Part shown: positions 8,979-21,985 of the stretch, piece by piece
Position numbering within the stretch: position 1 is the stretch's first letter
How the letters are laid out: each line of letters begins with the position of its first letter
Source of the DNA: Paenibacillaceae bacterium
GTDB taxonomy: Bacteria > Bacillota > Bacilli > Paenibacillales > CANHGK01
Direction: 5' to 3'
Assembly (NCBI GenBank): GCA_947460235.1
Contig: CANHGK010000005.1
Location: 62,001-126,000, forward strand
DNA: 64,000 nt
The notes under the pieces: model-generated
What the model saw: only the letters and a program-made list of their open reading frames with translations
Database searches by the model: none
Told to the model about the DNA's origin: nothing
Program-made: the position numbers and the translations under genes

Positions 8979-9061
8979 TCTAAATAGAAACTAAAACTTG
9001 CTAGGTGAAGCAGTATGTATTCAAAGATAGAGCGAGTTAGTGAAATTTGGAGTGTGCAGTA

Positions 9062-10183
9062 ATGATCGACATGAAAACAAGCAGTTTATTACCTGGTTTA
9101 ATTGTTGGTAAAAACGTAATCGGTGCATCCGGACAAGTACTAGTTGGCCGCGGTGTAAAATTAAATCAAAGATATATTCTGCAACTCAAAGAACACGGGA
9201 TTGTCGAAGTCCCAATTATGCAATCGATTGACTTATTAGATCCACTTTCTCCAGATCGCCTGAGACGACGAGAAGTAATCTATGAAAAGAAAGTCGATAT
9301 CAATGAAACGTATCAAACGATCGTTAACCAACTGATCGCAAATGAATTGAAACAAAACGTTAATTTTCACCTCGATACGTATTTTATACATTTAGTTAAT
9401 CTTGAGGAATTAAAACGGCGAATTGAAAAAATTCTTGTCGATACGTGTGCGGATTTGCACGTTATTTCGTTTTTATCGATGATGAAATGTATGGATTATA
9501 AAAGCATCAAGCGTTATTCTCGAGTATGTACAATTGGACTGCTCATCGGAATTGATATGGGGATTGAATACGAGAAGTTGATTTCATTGGCAAAGGCATG
9601 TTTGTTTTATAATATGGGGCATTTTGTATTGATGAAAAATTTCAAGGTGGACAAATTGTCTGCTTGGAAACAAGAAGATAAACTTTACACGAGTCATGGG
9701 ACCATTGGTTCAAAATATTTAAATGATTTTTTTGATGAAGACGTTTCTCGTGCAGCATTGGAACATCATGAGCGTGTTTCTGGTAGTGGATTTCCGAATA
9801 ATTTGAGTGGAAGTGAAATTTCGTTAGTTTCAAAAATCGTAAGCGTCGCTGGCCGATTCGTTAGTCTAAAACATAAGAATGGGATTCATACGCGGTATCA
9901 TCGCGATTTAGCGATCGATTATATTTTTAATCAAGAAGGCTTTCAGTTTGATTCGAATGTGGTCAATTCATTTCGCAAACAGATCACACCGTATCCAATC
10001 AATTCGGTCATTGAGTTGAGTGAGGGTTCGCGGGGAATTGTGATCAAAAACGGAATGGGTCCGGACTACTTCCCGATTATTAAGATTCAATTTTCTAAGT
10101 CAACGATGTTTGAAAATGGTGATATCGTAAATACGCAAGAACTTGAAGCAGTTTATATTACGCGAGATCTGATGGTTTATTAA
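9062..10183 (+). CDS. Pseudo-HD-GYP domain protein, paralogue A
   Basis: 373 residues. The N-terminal 75 residues (MKTSSLLPGLIVGKNVIGASG) resemble the segment that often precedes HD-GYP domains. The second half follows an HD-GYP fold: AALEHHERVSGSGFPNN retains the HHE and GxGFP features, but the metal-binding HD dyad (HDIGK) reads YNMGH, the leading HS reads YS, and the later VAD reads VAG. HD-GYP enzymes break down c-di-GMP; this one should be inactive and may act as a sensor or binding protein. It matches the 15266-16387 protein throughout. ATG at 9062 with GGAG 9 bases before. Confidence 0.8.
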   Translation: MIDMKTSSLLPGLIVGKNVIGASGQVLVGRGVKLNQRYILQLKEHGIVEVPIMQSIDLLDPLSPDRLRRREVIYEKKVDINETYQTIVNQLIANELKQNVNFHLDTYFIHLVNLEELKRRIEKILVDTCADLHVISFLSMMKCMDYKSIKRYSRVCTIGLLIGIDMGIEYEKLISLAKACLFYNMGHFVLMKNFKVDKLSAWKQEDKLYTSHGTIGSKYLNDFFDEDVSRAALEHHERVSGSGFPNNLSGSEISLVSKIVSVAGRFVSLKHKNGIHTRYHRDLAIDYIFNQEGFQFDSNVVNSFRKQITPYPINSVIELSEGSRGIVIKNGMGPDYFPIIKIQFSKSTMFENGDIVNTQELEAVYITRDLMVY

Positions 10184-12493: not shown

Positions 12494-12600
12494 AAAAATT
12501 CCTCCAATTGAGTTTGCGAGCATTTATTATAGTTACATCATATCATTCGTTATTGAAATGAAACTGAAATAGGGTCAGAATAAAAAAAGAGGTGAAATAT

Positions 12601-13281
12601 ATGAAAATTTTAATTGCTGAAGACGATCCGCGTCTTGGTGAAGCCATGGCGCATTTTTTACGCGCACAACAGATGCAGGTGGAATGGGTACGAAATGGCT
12701 CCGATGCGTTTGAGTTATGTATGCAGGCGGGTTACGATGTCGTGTTGCTCGATTGGATGATGCCGGACATGACAGGAATTGAAGTCATCCGTAAACTACG
12801 CTCGAACGGTTATCAACGGGCAATTATACTTGTTACCGCGCGGGATGCACTTGAAGATCGGGTTCAAGGATTGTCGGGCGGGGCGGATGACTATATCGTT
12901 AAACCATTTGCAATGCAAGAATTGGTGGCTCGCATCCATGCATTATCACGACGGAATTTTGCTTCGTTTGAATCGAATGAACTTGTAATCGGTGATCTTG
13001 GATTGGACCGATTACGAAATACGGTACGCCGCGGTGAAGAAGAAGTGTTGTTGTCACAACGTGAATTTGCAATGTTGGAATGGCTTGCAAGGCACCCCAC
13101 GCGTTTTTTTAGTAAACAAGCATTACTCGAACGAATATGGGGCATGGACTCTGACGTGACATTAAATGCGGTGGAAGCATGTATTAAATTGCTTCGCAAA
13201 AAGCTCGAAAAAATTGGTGCGAGTCAATCGATCGAAACGATTCGCGGGGTGGGGTATCGATTTGCAACGAATCGTGATTAA
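12601..13281 (+). CDS. OmpR-family response regulator
   Basis: 226 residues. A receiver domain (1-115) with acidic pair EDD near the N terminus, phospho-acceptor Asp in VVLLDWMMPDMTG, Thr in LVTARD and Lys in VKPF. A winged-helix DNA-binding domain (about 125-225) ends in ETIRGVGYRF. ATG at 12601 is preceded by AGAGGTGA; the GTG at 12592 is inside that site. It overlaps the kinase gene downstream and is divergent from the ApbE operon, its most likely target. Confidence 0.93.
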   Translation: MKILIAEDDPRLGEAMAHFLRAQQMQVEWVRNGSDAFELCMQAGYDVVLLDWMMPDMTGIEVIRKLRSNGYQRAIILVTARDALEDRVQGLSGGADDYIVKPFAMQELVARIHALSRRNFASFESNELVIGDLGLDRLRNTVRRGEEEVLLSQREFAMLEWLARHPTRFFSKQALLERIWGMDSDVTLNAVEACIKLLRKKLEKIGASQSIETIRGVGYRFATNRD

Positions 13282-14611
13282 AAAAACCGGACGCCGGATT
13301 GCAGTTCGCGTCGTATTCATGTATTGTACGTTTTTATTGTTATTTAGTTCAATTGCAATCTTTATTTTGTGGAAAACAGTCCAACTTCAAAATGAGCGTT
13401 CGCTGTATGAATTGCTTGATCAAGAAATTATGTCGATGAATCAAGAAGCGAAAAATCGAGCGCAGATGATCGAGCACGAACAAGATGAGGAAGACCACCA
13501 AAATGTTCCGAAATTTTCTGGGCGTGAGTTTGGTCGAAGCGGACTGTGGTTCCGACTTCTTCGGGACGAGCGAGGGAAATGGGCTCTACCTTTTGAGCGA
13601 GTTAATAATCTTTCGGTTCAAGTTGAGAAACAATTGAATGGGTTTAAACCGCAAAAACGTCAGACGATGAAATTATCGGTATCGATAAACGTCGAAAATA
13701 GCATGAAATCACTTTCGTTTTTAGTTGCTGCAGAACACACATCACAAGGTTGGCTTTATGTTGGTAACGAGTTGAGCGCATCGGACAAGTTGTGGTGGAC
13801 GACGATTTGGTGGTTGCTCGGCGTGATCGGGATTTTTGCGGTAATTGGAAGTTTACTTGCTTGGTTGGTAACGGGTCGTTCGCTTAGACCAGTCGCAGAT
13901 GCAATGAAGCGCCAAGCACAATTTGTGACGAATGCTTCGCATGAATTTCGCACGCCGCTCAGTATCATCCGAACGTCGCTGGATTGTTTGGGTGTGGAAG
14001 AAGAAGTATCAAGATCATCAATTGCACAGTACTGGATGAAGAACGTATATGATGAAGTGGATCGCATGAGTGGAATCATTGATCGTTTATTATCCATGGC
14101 GAGAATGGAAAGTGGTGCTAAACCAATCGTTGAACGGATGGATGCGGCGCAGCGGGTTGCCCAGGTCATTCAGCGTATGAAGCTACAAGCAGATTCAAGA
14201 CAATTAACCATTGAACAATTTGGTGAAGGATCATTTCTTTGGGACGGAGACCCCGTTCTTTTTGAACAGTTACTATCTATTTTTCTTGAAAATGCAATTA
14301 AATATGCACCTGATCGTGGAACCATATCTGTGACATTGCTTCGAAAACCATTACTTAGGAATCGTTCGATTTTGCGGATGGAAATAATGAATGATGGAGA
14401 TGGTGTGGCAAAAGAACATTTACCGTATTTATTTGAACGGTTTTATGTTGCAGATGAGTCACGCACAAATCGCAAGGGGCTCGGGATCGGCTTGTCAATC
14501 GCCCAGGCGATCGTGCAAGCGCACGACGGGTTAATCGGTGTTTCGAGTGAGCAAGGCAAAGGCGCGATGTTTTGGGTGGAATTGCCAGTGCTTACCCGAC
14601 AAAGTAAATAG
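13262..14611 (+). CDS. Sensor histidine kinase, partner of the adjacent regulator
   Basis: 449 residues from a TTG start at 13262, with GGGGTGGGG about 7 bases upstream; it overlaps the regulator by 20 bases. Membrane helices near 15-37 and 180-205 enclose a sensor of about 140 residues. The HisKA box reads ASHEFRTPLSI, the N box LENAIKY, with later boxes NDGDGV and GLGIGLSIAQ, so the kinase looks intact. HAMP is short or absent. Sensed signal unknown. The gene ends at the edge of a terminator that also ends the minus-strand RNA coming the other way. Confidence 0.92.
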   Translation: MQRIVIKKTGRRIAVRVVFMYCTFLLLFSSIAIFILWKTVQLQNERSLYELLDQEIMSMNQEAKNRAQMIEHEQDEEDHQNVPKFSGREFGRSGLWFRLLRDERGKWALPFERVNNLSVQVEKQLNGFKPQKRQTMKLSVSINVENSMKSLSFLVAAEHTSQGWLYVGNELSASDKLWWTTIWWLLGVIGIFAVIGSLLAWLVTGRSLRPVADAMKRQAQFVTNASHEFRTPLSIIRTSLDCLGVEEEVSRSSIAQYWMKNVYDEVDRMSGIIDRLLSMARMESGAKPIVERMDAAQRVAQVIQRMKLQADSRQLTIEQFGEGSFLWDGDPVLFEQLLSIFLENAIKYAPDRGTISVTLLRKPLLRNRSILRMEIMNDGDGVAKEHLPYLFERFYVADESRTNRKGLGIGLSIAQAIVQAHDGLIGVSSEQGKGAMFWVELPVLTRQSK

Positions 14612-14620
14612 ATACAAAAA

Positions 14621-14680
14621 AGACTTGTTTACTTACAGAGTTCTCTTTCGAAAGAGGGAACTTTGTAAATTAACAAGTCT
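14621..14680. terminator. 60-base bidirectional terminator
   Basis: AGACTTGTT at 14621-14629 pairs with AACAAGTCT at 14672-14680, and pairing continues almost without break to a central CTTTCGAAAG. The minus strand leaves the hairpin into TTTTTTGTAT, a good terminator for the c-di-GMP-aptamer RNA. The plus side, for the kinase gene, has only a short TCTTT. Confidence 0.85.
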
Positions 14681-14708
14681 TCTTTGGTACACCGATAATA
14701 GACCTTCA

Positions 14709-14815
14709 CAATTCGGCAGCTGGCAAACATTCGACATTTATTCAACCTCTGACAGTATCCCAAACATCCGTTAGTCCCTATAGCTTTGCGTCACCACTTT
14801 TCAATGGCTTTGCTT
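14709..14815 (-). promoter_or_regulatory. c-di-GMP-I riboswitch aptamer-like module 2
   Basis: The 5' half (14771-14815) reads GCAAAGCC, a GAAA-capped hairpin, GACGCAAAGCTATAGGG and ACTAA. The 3' half (14709-14728) reads GTTTGCCAGCTGCCGAATTG. About 42 bases lie between them, near the usual size. Flanks TTTCCAC and GTGAAGG can form the closing stem with one mismatch. Confidence 0.8.
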
Positions 14816-14850
14816 TTTCGGTGGAAATCACCTATCATCCTTCTCGTTCA

Positions 14851-15192
14851 CGGTAGCTGGCTGACATCTTATTTTCCAATCCACTCAACATCTGTCCCAA
14901 AACCTCTTTACAGTCCTGTCACCACATGCTGATCTTACCGTTTAGCATTTTTCCTTTGCATACCCTCCACATAACCCTTACTTGCTTCCATGTCGACGAT
15001 CTGGATTCACCAAGCCATAACCCTAATCAATCCAATTGATTCACCGCATATTCACAACCAAGTTTCATGCCGCCGTCACTTCGCCTCCACTCGAAATCAC
15101 ACGGTATACAATATCCCAATGTTCCACTTCGTGAATCTTCCAACACCTTAGTCCCTCTAGCTTTGCGCCATTGCCTTTCAGCAACTTTGCCC
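14851..15192 (-). promoter_or_regulatory. c-di-GMP-I aptamer-like module 1 with a ~280-nt internal insertion
   Basis: The 5' half (15148-15192) reads GGGCAAAGTTGC, a TGAAA loop, GGCGCAAAGCTAGAGGGACTAA. The only matching 3' half, ATGTCAGCCAGCTACCG, lies at 14851-14867, some 280 bases further on rather than the usual 20-50. The insert has many local complementarities (GATTCAC with GTGAATC, ATGCT with AGCAT, TTTCG with CGAAG) and so looks structured. Confidence 0.7.
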
Positions 15193-15208
15193 TTATCGGT
15201 GTGAATTA

Positions 15209-15237
15209 AATATAACTGATTTATCTGACAATTTCAA
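15209..15237 (-). promoter_or_regulatory. Promoter of the c-di-GMP-aptamer RNA
   Basis: On the minus strand TTGAAA (15232-15237) and TATATT (15209-15214) are exactly 17 bases apart. The predicted start near 15202 falls at the first base of the ACACCGATAA element. It lies between the end of pseudo-HD-GYP B and the first aptamer, so the RNA need not be a 3' UTR. Confidence 0.65.
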
Positions 15238-15265: not shown

Positions 15266-16387
15266 TTATTGAATCATTAATTCGCGTCTAATATAAATAT
15301 CTTCGAGATCTTTTGTATTGATAAAATCACCATTATTAAAAATAGTAGATTTTGCAATGACGATTTTGATCATCGGTTCATAATCCGGTCCGATACCGTT
15401 TTTAATCACAATCCCGCGAGAACCGTCACTTAATTCGAGTACCGTCCCAATCGGATAGGGTGTAATGTGTTTGCGGAATGAGTTGACAACATTGGTGTCA
15501 AACATGGTTCCTTCCACGTTAAATATATAATCCATGGCCAAGTCCCGCTTGCATTTTACACGTAAACTATTGTTATATTTCATACTAACAAATCGACCAG
15601 CAACAGAAACAATTTTTGAAATTAAGGCAATCTCGCTGCCACTTTTGTTATTTGGAGTTCCGCCACCAGCGAAGCGTTCGTGATGTTCAAGTGCGGCACG
15701 AGCGACATCCTCATCGAAAAAATCGCTAAGATACGTTGACCCAATTAACGAATGGCTCTGATAAATTTGTTCGGTCTGCTTCCATTTGGATAAATTGGTA
15801 ATTTTGAAATTTTTCATCAAAATAAAATGACCAATATTGTAGAATAGGCATGCTTTTCCTAACGAAATTAATTTTTCGTGTTCGATGCCCATATCAATAC
15901 CTATCATTAATCCGATGGCCGTAACACGGGAGTATCGTAAAATGCTTTTGTGGTCTAAGCATTTCATCATCGACAAGATGGAAATAACGTGCAAGTCCTT
16001 GCAAATTTGATCAATTAAATTTCGAATTTTCATTTCAATCGCATCAAACTCATTGAGATGACTATAGAACGATCTTAAATGCACTAAAACGGTGTGTAAT
16101 AATTCATCACTAATAATTTTATTCGCTAACAATTGATAGTTTTCTTGTGCATCTGATTTCTTATCATAAAAAATTTGTTTTCTGGACAATCGATTTGGCG
16201 AAAGTGGGTCTAACAGATCAATCGATTGCAAGATCGGAACTTCAAGGATGCCATGTTCTTTTAATTGCTGAATAATTCGTTGATTTAACTTGTATCCTTT
16301 TCCTACAAGTACTTGTCCTGAAATGCCAATAATATTTTTGCCAACGATTAGGCCAGGCATTACTGCGGATGTTTTCATGTTGATCAA
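15266..16387 (-). CDS. Pseudo-HD-GYP domain protein, paralogue B
   Basis: 373 residues, the same length as the 9062-10183 protein and alignable from end to end without gaps of note. The same active-site losses are present: HS to YS, HDIGK to YNIGH, VAD to VAG, with AALEHHERFAGGGTPNN retained. Parallel loss in both copies means the change predates the duplication and both are kept without c-di-GMP hydrolysis. The start is a TTG at 16387, 7 bases after GGAGG. The minus-strand c-di-GMP-aptamer RNA begins about 65 bases after its stop codon, which suggests a shared c-di-GMP connection. Confidence 0.8.
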   Translation of the reverse strand: MINMKTSAVMPGLIVGKNIIGISGQVLVGKGYKLNQRIIQQLKEHGILEVPILQSIDLLDPLSPNRLSRKQIFYDKKSDAQENYQLLANKIISDELLHTVLVHLRSFYSHLNEFDAIEMKIRNLIDQICKDLHVISILSMMKCLDHKSILRYSRVTAIGLMIGIDMGIEHEKLISLGKACLFYNIGHFILMKNFKITNLSKWKQTEQIYQSHSLIGSTYLSDFFDEDVARAALEHHERFAGGGTPNNKSGSEIALISKIVSVAGRFVSMKYNNSLRVKCKRDLAMDYIFNVEGTMFDTNVVNSFRKHITPYPIGTVLELSDGSRGIVIKNGIGPDYEPMIKIVIAKSTIFNNGDFINTKDLEDIYIRRELMIQ

Positions 16388-20251: not shown

Positions 20252-21985
20252 TTAGAATAAGAAATATCGCTGCGCCATCGGCAATGTTTTTGCGGGTTCA
20301 CAAACGGCAGGAACTCCGTCAACGAGCACTTCGTATGTTTCGGGATTGACCGTAATGGTCGGTGTTGCGTCATTATGAATCATATCCGCCTTACATACCG
20401 AGCGACAACCTTGGACGGCTTCGATTCGCTTCATTAAACCAAGTTGTTCTGGAACTCCGCCGTGAATGGCTGCTTGTGATACGAAGGTAATGCACGTTTC
20501 ACTCACCGCCCGCCCGAACGCACCGAACATTAGACGGCCCCAAACGGGTTGTGGCGTAGGAATCGATGCATTTGGATCGCCCATTTGGGCGTAAGCAATC
20601 ATGCCGCCTTTTAAGATGAGATCTGGTTTTACACCAAAAAATTTAGGGTCCCAAACGACAAGGTCGGCCCATTTATTTTCTTCGAGTGAACCTACGATGT
20701 GCGCAATACCATGTGTGCGTGCAGGGTTGATTGTGTACTTCGCAATGTATCGTTTAATGCGGTAATTATCGCTTTCGCCAAATGTAGCACTGTCGATTTC
20801 GTCTTCATTCAATAAACCACGTTGCTGTTTCATTTTATCTGCGGTTTGCCATGTGCGGGTGATGACTTCGCCGACGCGTCCCATTGCTTGAGAATCGGAA
20901 CTGATCATGCTGAACACACCGAGGTCATGCATAATATCTTCCGCAGCAATTGTTTCTGGACGAATTCGGGAATCGGCAAATGCAACATCTTCAGGAATAT
21001 CTGGATCAAGGTGATGACAAACCATAAGCATGTCTAAATGTTCTTCGATCGTATTTACTGTGTAAGGACGGGTTGGGTTTGTGGAACTTGGTAAAACATA
21101 ATGCTCGGATGCGATGCGGATAATGTCTGGTGCATGACCTCCGCCTGCGCCTTCCGTGTGATAGGTGTGAATCGTGCGTCCGCCGATTGCGCGAATCGTA
21201 TCTTCAACGAACCCTGTTTCATTCAATGTGTCGGTGTGGATGGCAACTTGGACATCGTATTGGTCGGCAACAGTTAAGCATGTATCGATTGCTTTTGGTG
21301 TTGTGCCCCAGTCTTCGTGTAACTTTAACCCGATGACACCCGCCTCGATTTGTTCAATCAATGGGGCAGTTGTTGCGCAGTTGCCTTTACCGGTAAATCC
21401 AAGATTCATCGGAAAAGCTTCGGCTGCTTGCAACATGCGGTAAATATTCCATGCGCCTGGCGTACATGTGGTTGCGTTCGTACCTGTTGCCGGTCCCGTT
21501 CCGCCGCCGATCATTGTCGTTACGCCGGATGCGAGTGCAGTTTCAATTTGCTGAGGACAGATATAATGAATGTGTGTATCGAGGCCGCCAGCAGTAACGA
21601 TTTTGCCTTCACATGAAATGATTTCGGTGCCAGCACCGATCACCAAGCGAGGATCGACGCCTTCCATTGTATCTGGGTTTCCAGATTTGCCGATGGCAAT
21701 AATTCTCCCGTCACGAATTCCGATGTCTGCTTTTACAATGCCCCAGTGGTCAATGACGATTGCATTCGTTAATACAACGTCTGGTGTGCCTGATTCACGG
21801 GTCGCTGTGGATGATTGGCCTTGACCGTCCCGGATAACTTTACCTCCGCCAAACTTCGCTTCATCCCCGTAAACGGTAAAATCTTTCTCGATTCTTGCCC
21901 ACAAATTCGTATCTGCAAGCCTGACTGCATCACCGGTTGTCGGCCCGAACATGGCAGCGTACGAAGCCCTGCTGATTTTACTCAT
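20252..21985 (-). CDS. ureC: Urease alpha subunit (catalytic)
   Basis: 577 residues. The Ni ligands are visible: HIH in [11 protein letters not shown] near 138, the carbamylated Lys in GLKLHEDWG near 219, His in [11 protein letters not shown] and the [13 protein letters not shown] loop, and the flap CHHLDP near 321. It hydrolyses urea to ammonia and carbamate in a complex with UreA and UreB. All catalytic positions I could check are intact, so the enzyme itself is not decayed despite the ureF lesion. GGAGGG precedes the ATG at 21985; the start overlaps the end of ureB by 8 bases. Confidence 0.97.

Follow-up and report, generated by a model that had tools for sequence, protein, structure and literature searches.

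The window, the whole 64-kb stretch of DNA analyzed here, carries on its minus strand an RNA gene of ~590 nt (~15202-14616), present in two copies in the genome. Upstream lies a co-directional gene for a degenerate HD-GYP protein; on the other side, 5 nt separate the terminator of the RNA from the end of a convergent gene for a histidine kinase. Two c-di-GMP-I (GEMM-I, RF01051) aptamers, called here A and B, together with an insert in A occupy nearly the whole RNA. The features of the locus are:

15266-16387, minus strand: degenerate HD-GYP gene, co-directional with the RNA and upstream of it (Pfam HD_5; HD changed to YN and GYP to GTP on alignment with an intact HD-GYP)
15209-15237, minus strand: promoter-like TTGAAA-N17-TATATT, a 10/12 consensus match, also found in the second copy
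15193-15202, minus strand: 5′ strand of helix P0, ACACCGAUAA, at the RNA start, pairing with 14698-14689
15147-15192, minus strand: 5′ half of aptamer A, with G20 at 15191, P2 with a GAAA loop, GCAAAGC core and CUAA receptor strand (RF01051 match)
14869-15146, minus strand: structured insert of 278 nt in P3 of aptamer A (predicted fold, MFE -81.9, z -6.2)
15137-15131/14884-14878, minus strand: basal stem of the insert (predicted helix)
15111-14956, minus strand: long arm of the insert with a side hairpin and a rod, the latter at 15072-14967 (predicted helices)
14932-14885, minus strand: second hairpin of the insert (predicted helix)
14851-14868, minus strand: GATGTCAGCCAGCTACCG, the 3′ half of aptamer A, with all 18 nt shared by the second copy
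14820-14832, minus strand: linker hairpin GGUG/CACC (predicted fold; its counterpart in the second copy is AGUG/CACU at L041:1100-1111)
14712-14824, minus strand: intact GEMM aptamer B, with A at the Vc2 G20 position (14814; RF01051, 60.1 bits)
14689-14698, minus strand: 3′ strand of P0, UUAUCGGUGU, pairing with 15193-15202
14616-14685, minus strand: intrinsic terminator hairpin with a U6 tail (about -27 kcal/mol)
13166-14611, plus strand: histidine kinase gene, convergent with the RNA (Pfam HisKA and HATPase_c)

Past 14616, the minus strand runs antisense to the histidine kinase and response regulator genes, and the next plausible gene on it starts at 12523. The RNA is thus not directly followed on its strand by a gene that it could regulate, in agreement with the initial annotation, which had also correctly recognized the neighboring gene as a pseudo-HD-GYP gene and the terminator, a long hairpin followed by the U6 tail, as strong. 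This hairpin is T-rich on its plus-strand side too, so that it may also serve the convergent kinase gene. As a separate observation, the degenerate HD-GYP protein has a paralog encoded at 9047-10183 on the plus strand (66% identical; HD changed to YN and GYP to GFP/GTP in the pair); the two genes, in opposite orientation, surround apbE and the two-component genes, and the genome encodes further HD_5 proteins.

A putative autonomous unit in two copies

The second copy of the RNA (G000:C5:~681-1275) shows a DNA match to the arrangement of the window copy at G000:C5:678-777 and 1063-1159, and its RF01051 scores are 68.7 and 42 bits. It displays, in this order, TTGAAA-N17-TATAAT, ACACCGATAA, the 23-mer GGCGCAAAGCTAGAGGGACTAAG, and an insert of 291 nt, after which come the 18-mer GATGTCAGCCAGCTACCG and a linker; aptamer B follows, then TTACCGGTGT, and the unit ends with a terminator (~-24 kcal/mol). 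The two copies are homologous from the -35 box onward, through P0, the split aptamer A, aptamer B, and P0′, after which both have a terminator. The neighbors of the second copy, an Hpt gene upstream and a co-directional ORF of 43 codons downstream, are unrelated to those of the window copy. That only the promoter-to-terminator segment is common to the two copies constitutes the best evidence for one self-contained gene, and the autonomy of the RNA as a transcription unit appears well supported by this comparison.

The initial annotation had attributed to the RNA its own promoter. Taken by itself, the promoter-like match does not exceed chance (19 sites versus 16.2 expected in 6 kb), but the box recurs in the second copy with the same spacing and position (L041:681-709, 11/12). 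The putative promoter is thus a consensus match kept in two copies, with a predicted start at ~15203. In neither copy did we find a terminator separating the RNA from the gene upstream of it, which implies that the RNA may also arise as a 3′ UTR; both copies are located at most about 60 nt after a co-directional signaling gene (degenerate HD-GYP and Hpt, respectively). We did not find any downstream target common to both copies. A coding role was considered and rejected: the only reading frame that the copies have in common lies in the conserved half of the aptamer.

An aptamer split by a structured arm

A cmscan search placed both c-di-GMP-I modules proposed in the initial annotation above the RF01051 gathering score (35), the stronger at 14824-14712 (60.1 bits) and the weaker at 15201-15129 (36.4 bits), both on the minus strand. 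Both modules are real, but the first is not the compact 73-nt aptamer that the match suggests. Its split, like the second copy of the RNA, the closing of both ends in one helix, and the A20 of module B, had escaped the initial annotation. The Rfam alignment mispairs its 3′ half, and the true 3′ half, GATGTCAGCCAGCTACCG, is found ~300 nt further downstream. This segment is a proper GEMM 3′ half that pairs with AGCU-AGA-GG-GAC of the 5′ half, so that the intervening 278 nt (15146-14869) are placed at the tip of P3, and the weak score of module A is explained by a single aptamer with its P3 split by this insert. Aptamer A thus spans ~340 nt, compared with about 80-117 nt in 70 aptamers from 14 genomes of the same order. 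The P2 GNRA loop, the GCAAAGC core, the CUAA strand, and a GCC-AGCU-CCG 3′ half pairable in P3 are present in both aptamers, in A only if the insert is allowed. In the 5′ half of aptamer A, the 23 nt of GGCGCAAAGCTAGAGGGACTAAG are identical in the second copy.

The inserts of both copies fold far better than their dinucleotide shuffles (z -6.2 in the window copy and -4.0 in the second copy), and at the sequence level they resemble each other no more than shuffled inserts do (47/300 in global and 282/300 in local alignment). Their predicted shape is common to the two and comprises a basal stem followed by a long arm, which bears a side hairpin and a rod (~90-106 nt), and then a smaller hairpin region. 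The tree distance between them is 141, as against 224±26 for shuffles, with 0/400 shuffles as close (3/400 by mountain rms and 23/400 by mountain correlation), a test that is good but not final because it compares two sequences, both of them long and highly paired hairpins, and partly reflects length and pairing. With this proviso, the arm would be conserved in shape rather than in sequence. That the aptamer sequence is conserved while the insert sequence drifts and its shape would stay constant suggests that the arm works as a body, which may serve in protein binding, spacing, or stability, or, alternatively, that the two copies have different pairing targets; it would speak against one antisense target common to both.

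A predicted common closing helix

In the predicted ensembles P0 is near certain, with 10 bp in the window copy and 9/10 in the second copy (9.7/10 and 8.8/9 expected pairs, respectively, without constraints), and its predicted energy is ~10 kcal/mol better than that of separate P1 helices in both copies, which argues for one closing helix for the two aptamers. A four-segment switch alternating between separate P1s and the common P0 is possible on paper in both copies, with a separate state ~10 kcal/mol worse, and we therefore take P0 as the ground state. A fold in which both aptamers are forced to have canonical P2 and P3 lies ~4 kcal/mol above the MFE.

The initial annotation had envisaged that the RNA might control read-through past its terminator. 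However, the best upstream duplexes with the 5′ arm of the terminator are no better than those of shuffles in either copy (178/200 and 84/200), which makes classical termination switching unlikely, and both terminators are strong.

Aptamer B and the nature of the ligand

By the Rfam columns, Vc2 position 20 is G in module A and A in module B, in both copies. Aptamer B resembles in this respect the cGAMP riboswitches (GEMM-Ib), since a G20A change allows cGAMP binding by this aptamer (PMC7288161; PMC6274999). Against this likeness, A20 also occurs in other GEMMs that we retrieved (L017, L025, L059, and L060), and the selectivity residue of the five GGDEF proteins of the genome is N, N, N, D, and D, with no Ser/Thr. 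Asn is not the known Hypr selectivity residue, but it might still bear on specificity. The Hypr GGDEF enzymes that make cGAMP have Ser/Thr at this position (PMC9140294). A search of the genome for SMODS proteins gave no match and no cGAMP synthase was recognized in it. cGAMP sensing by module B was accordingly not favored: A20 is present, yet the genome has no recognized synthase. Given the GGDEF residues and the lack of a SMODS protein, c-di-GMP is assumed to be the ligand of both aptamers. The G20/A20 difference hints at different affinities or cGAMP tolerance of A and B; we assume from it that aptamer B has a lower affinity or looser specificity than A, and the split aptamer A may, in turn, have an affinity unlike that of the intact A20 aptamer.

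Two observations on related sequences can be added. Three of the five GGDEF proteins (L063, L065, and L067) have GHxxGN in place of GHxxGD, and a Ruminococcaceae contig (L060:3672-4272, minus strand) contains three c-di-GMP-I aptamers in a row, at least two of which have a residue other than G at position 20.

Distribution and other GEMMs of the genome

The genome contains a total of 10 GEMM matches. The other six occur in ordinary leaders: three lie ahead of amylase-like genes, and one each ahead of a PilZ-like gene, a gene for a secreted protein, and a small ORF. This indicates that the organism also uses ordinary cis switches. The three amylase-like genes encode secreted proteins (L045, L046, and L047, at G000:C22, C16, and C37) and each lies behind a c-di-GMP-I or I-GGC riboswitch, an apparent c-di-GMP regulon for starch degradation as judged from gene order.

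The initial annotation had proposed looking for the same arrangement in related genomes, and the following searches did not find it. Outside this genome, a 641-nt DNA query retrieved only aptamer-sized pieces from 61 genomes of the order. GEMM core pairs 355-385 nt apart were sought in 200 genomes and were true only in this one, the rest being coding repeats or chance matches. The split pattern, searched with a gap of 272-302 and thus for inserts of that length, was limited to the two copies described here among 395 genomes of the order; a like search in a set of 84,980 species matched four loci, every one of them with complete GEMMs, which were either ordinary tandems or had matched through an incidental 3′ sequence. 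An exact 21-mer search gave no match, and the weak GEMM matches of 14 relatives were ordinary, none of them split. The relatives compared all belong to other families, and both sequences of the RNA come from one genome. Because aptamers split in the manner of A have scores close to the cut-off and can readily be taken for weak matches of the ordinary kind, more of them may be hidden.

Discussion

Riboswitches are defined as cis elements. The locus described here is best explained, with a probability of about 0.6, as an autonomous, structured noncoding RNA of ~590 nt, present in two copies, that would bind c-di-GMP and act off its own transcript; such action is suggested by the lack of an antiterminator and of a common ORF and by the placement of the other six GEMMs in normal leaders. 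The closest precedent is merRNA of Bdellovibrio bacteriovorus. This stand-alone RNA of 445 nt contains a c-di-GMP riboswitch, lacks an ORF downstream, and is expressed at huge levels; a role as reservoir has been proposed for it (PMC3627812). Our RNA resembles it, as described, in being a stand-alone, lineage-restricted RNA of several hundred nucleotides that combines a putative promoter, a terminator, and a c-di-GMP aptamer with no ORF behind. Unlike merRNA, it has two aptamers, one of them split by a 278-nt arm, an end-to-end helix, two copies, and a Bacillota-like host. With tandem GEMM-I riboswitches it has in common the sequence and fold of the aptamers, their arrangement two in a row, and a terminator behind them, but it differs from them by a common P0 in place of separate P1s, a giant P3 insert, and the lack of both an antiterminator and a regulated gene. 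In the open-access texts searched, merRNA was the only stand-alone c-di-GMP RNA found, and none of them described a helix common to two aptamers or a GEMM whose P3 carries a large structured insert.

In the proposed mechanism, c-di-GMP bound at aptamers A and B would lock a ring formed by P0 and the P2/P3 helices of A and B, the locked ring would determine where the arm lies or how stable it is, and the RNA would act off its own transcript. The likeliest output would be an action in trans through the shape of the arm, such as protein binding, with plain c-di-GMP buffering nearly as likely. We tentatively envisage a free-standing, ligand-gated device in which G20 and A20 aptamers of different specificity or affinity, held in a closed ring, would position the ~280-nt shape-conserved arm and act in trans, with a protein as one conceivable target; control would be by c-di-GMP or by a mixture of c-di-GMP and cGAMP. 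It is also possible, by analogy with the reservoir role proposed for merRNA (PMC3627812), that the RNA serves as a c-di-GMP sink, abundant and stable, with two aptamers per molecule and two genes, the arm merely adding stability. The near-consensus promoters of both copies and the conservation of the aptamers and end helix, but not of the insert sequence, would fit such a sink, which would nonetheless leave unexplained why the arm shape and the G20/A20 difference between A and B are conserved.

Other explanations tie the RNA to its neighbors. It could be a structured 3′ UTR through which c-di-GMP tunes the mRNA stability of the upstream signaling gene, as the missing terminator between gene and RNA and their close spacing in both copies would allow; however, the genes upstream of the two copies have no relation to each other, both copies keep the promoter box, with homology beginning there and not in the upstream gene, and no other degenerate HD-GYP locus adjoins any of the ten GEMM matches of the genome, so that we regard this as unlikely. 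c-di-GMP might instead gate read-through into an RNA antisense to the histidine kinase and regulator genes. The window copy, and only this one, does lie within the 500 nt from the 3′ end of a convergent gene that define antisense-riboswitch placement, being 5 nt from the stop of the kinase gene, and, among riboswitches, those for c-di-GMP tend most to antisense placement, with histidine kinases among the targets of these computationally described elements (PMC9943018). Listeria also has riboswitch-controlled small RNAs (PMC8079631), and AspocR, Rli55, and SreA resemble our RNA in that the riboswitch belongs to a noncoding transcript, which in our case converges with a kinase gene (PMC8079631; PMC9943018). 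These act by ligand-controlled termination or by trans pairing of the terminated product, whereas no switchable terminator is visible here; together with the absence of a predicted antiterminator better than shuffles in either copy, the -27 kcal/mol terminator, and the co-directional ORF after the second copy, this makes antisense gating decidedly unlikely. Finally, ordinary tandem GEMMs in related genomes and the lack of a downstream target for the window copy would agree with a decayed duplicate of a tandem riboswitch that has lost its gene, a highly improbable origin given that both copies keep their aptamer cores, P0, promoter, terminator, and a like-shaped insert despite strong divergence elsewhere, which is not expected of decay.

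If the RNA does act off its own transcript, it would represent a second, differently built stand-alone case in another lineage, implying that c-di-GMP can act through dedicated RNAs, and its two copies offer a two-gene system for comparing sink and trans-action models.

Elsewhere in the window, the Rfam family 5_ureB_sRNA matches positions 21538-21827 of the plus strand with 72 bits, the urease alpha-subunit gene being encoded on the other strand; this match probably reflects conserved urease coding sequence rather than a small RNA.
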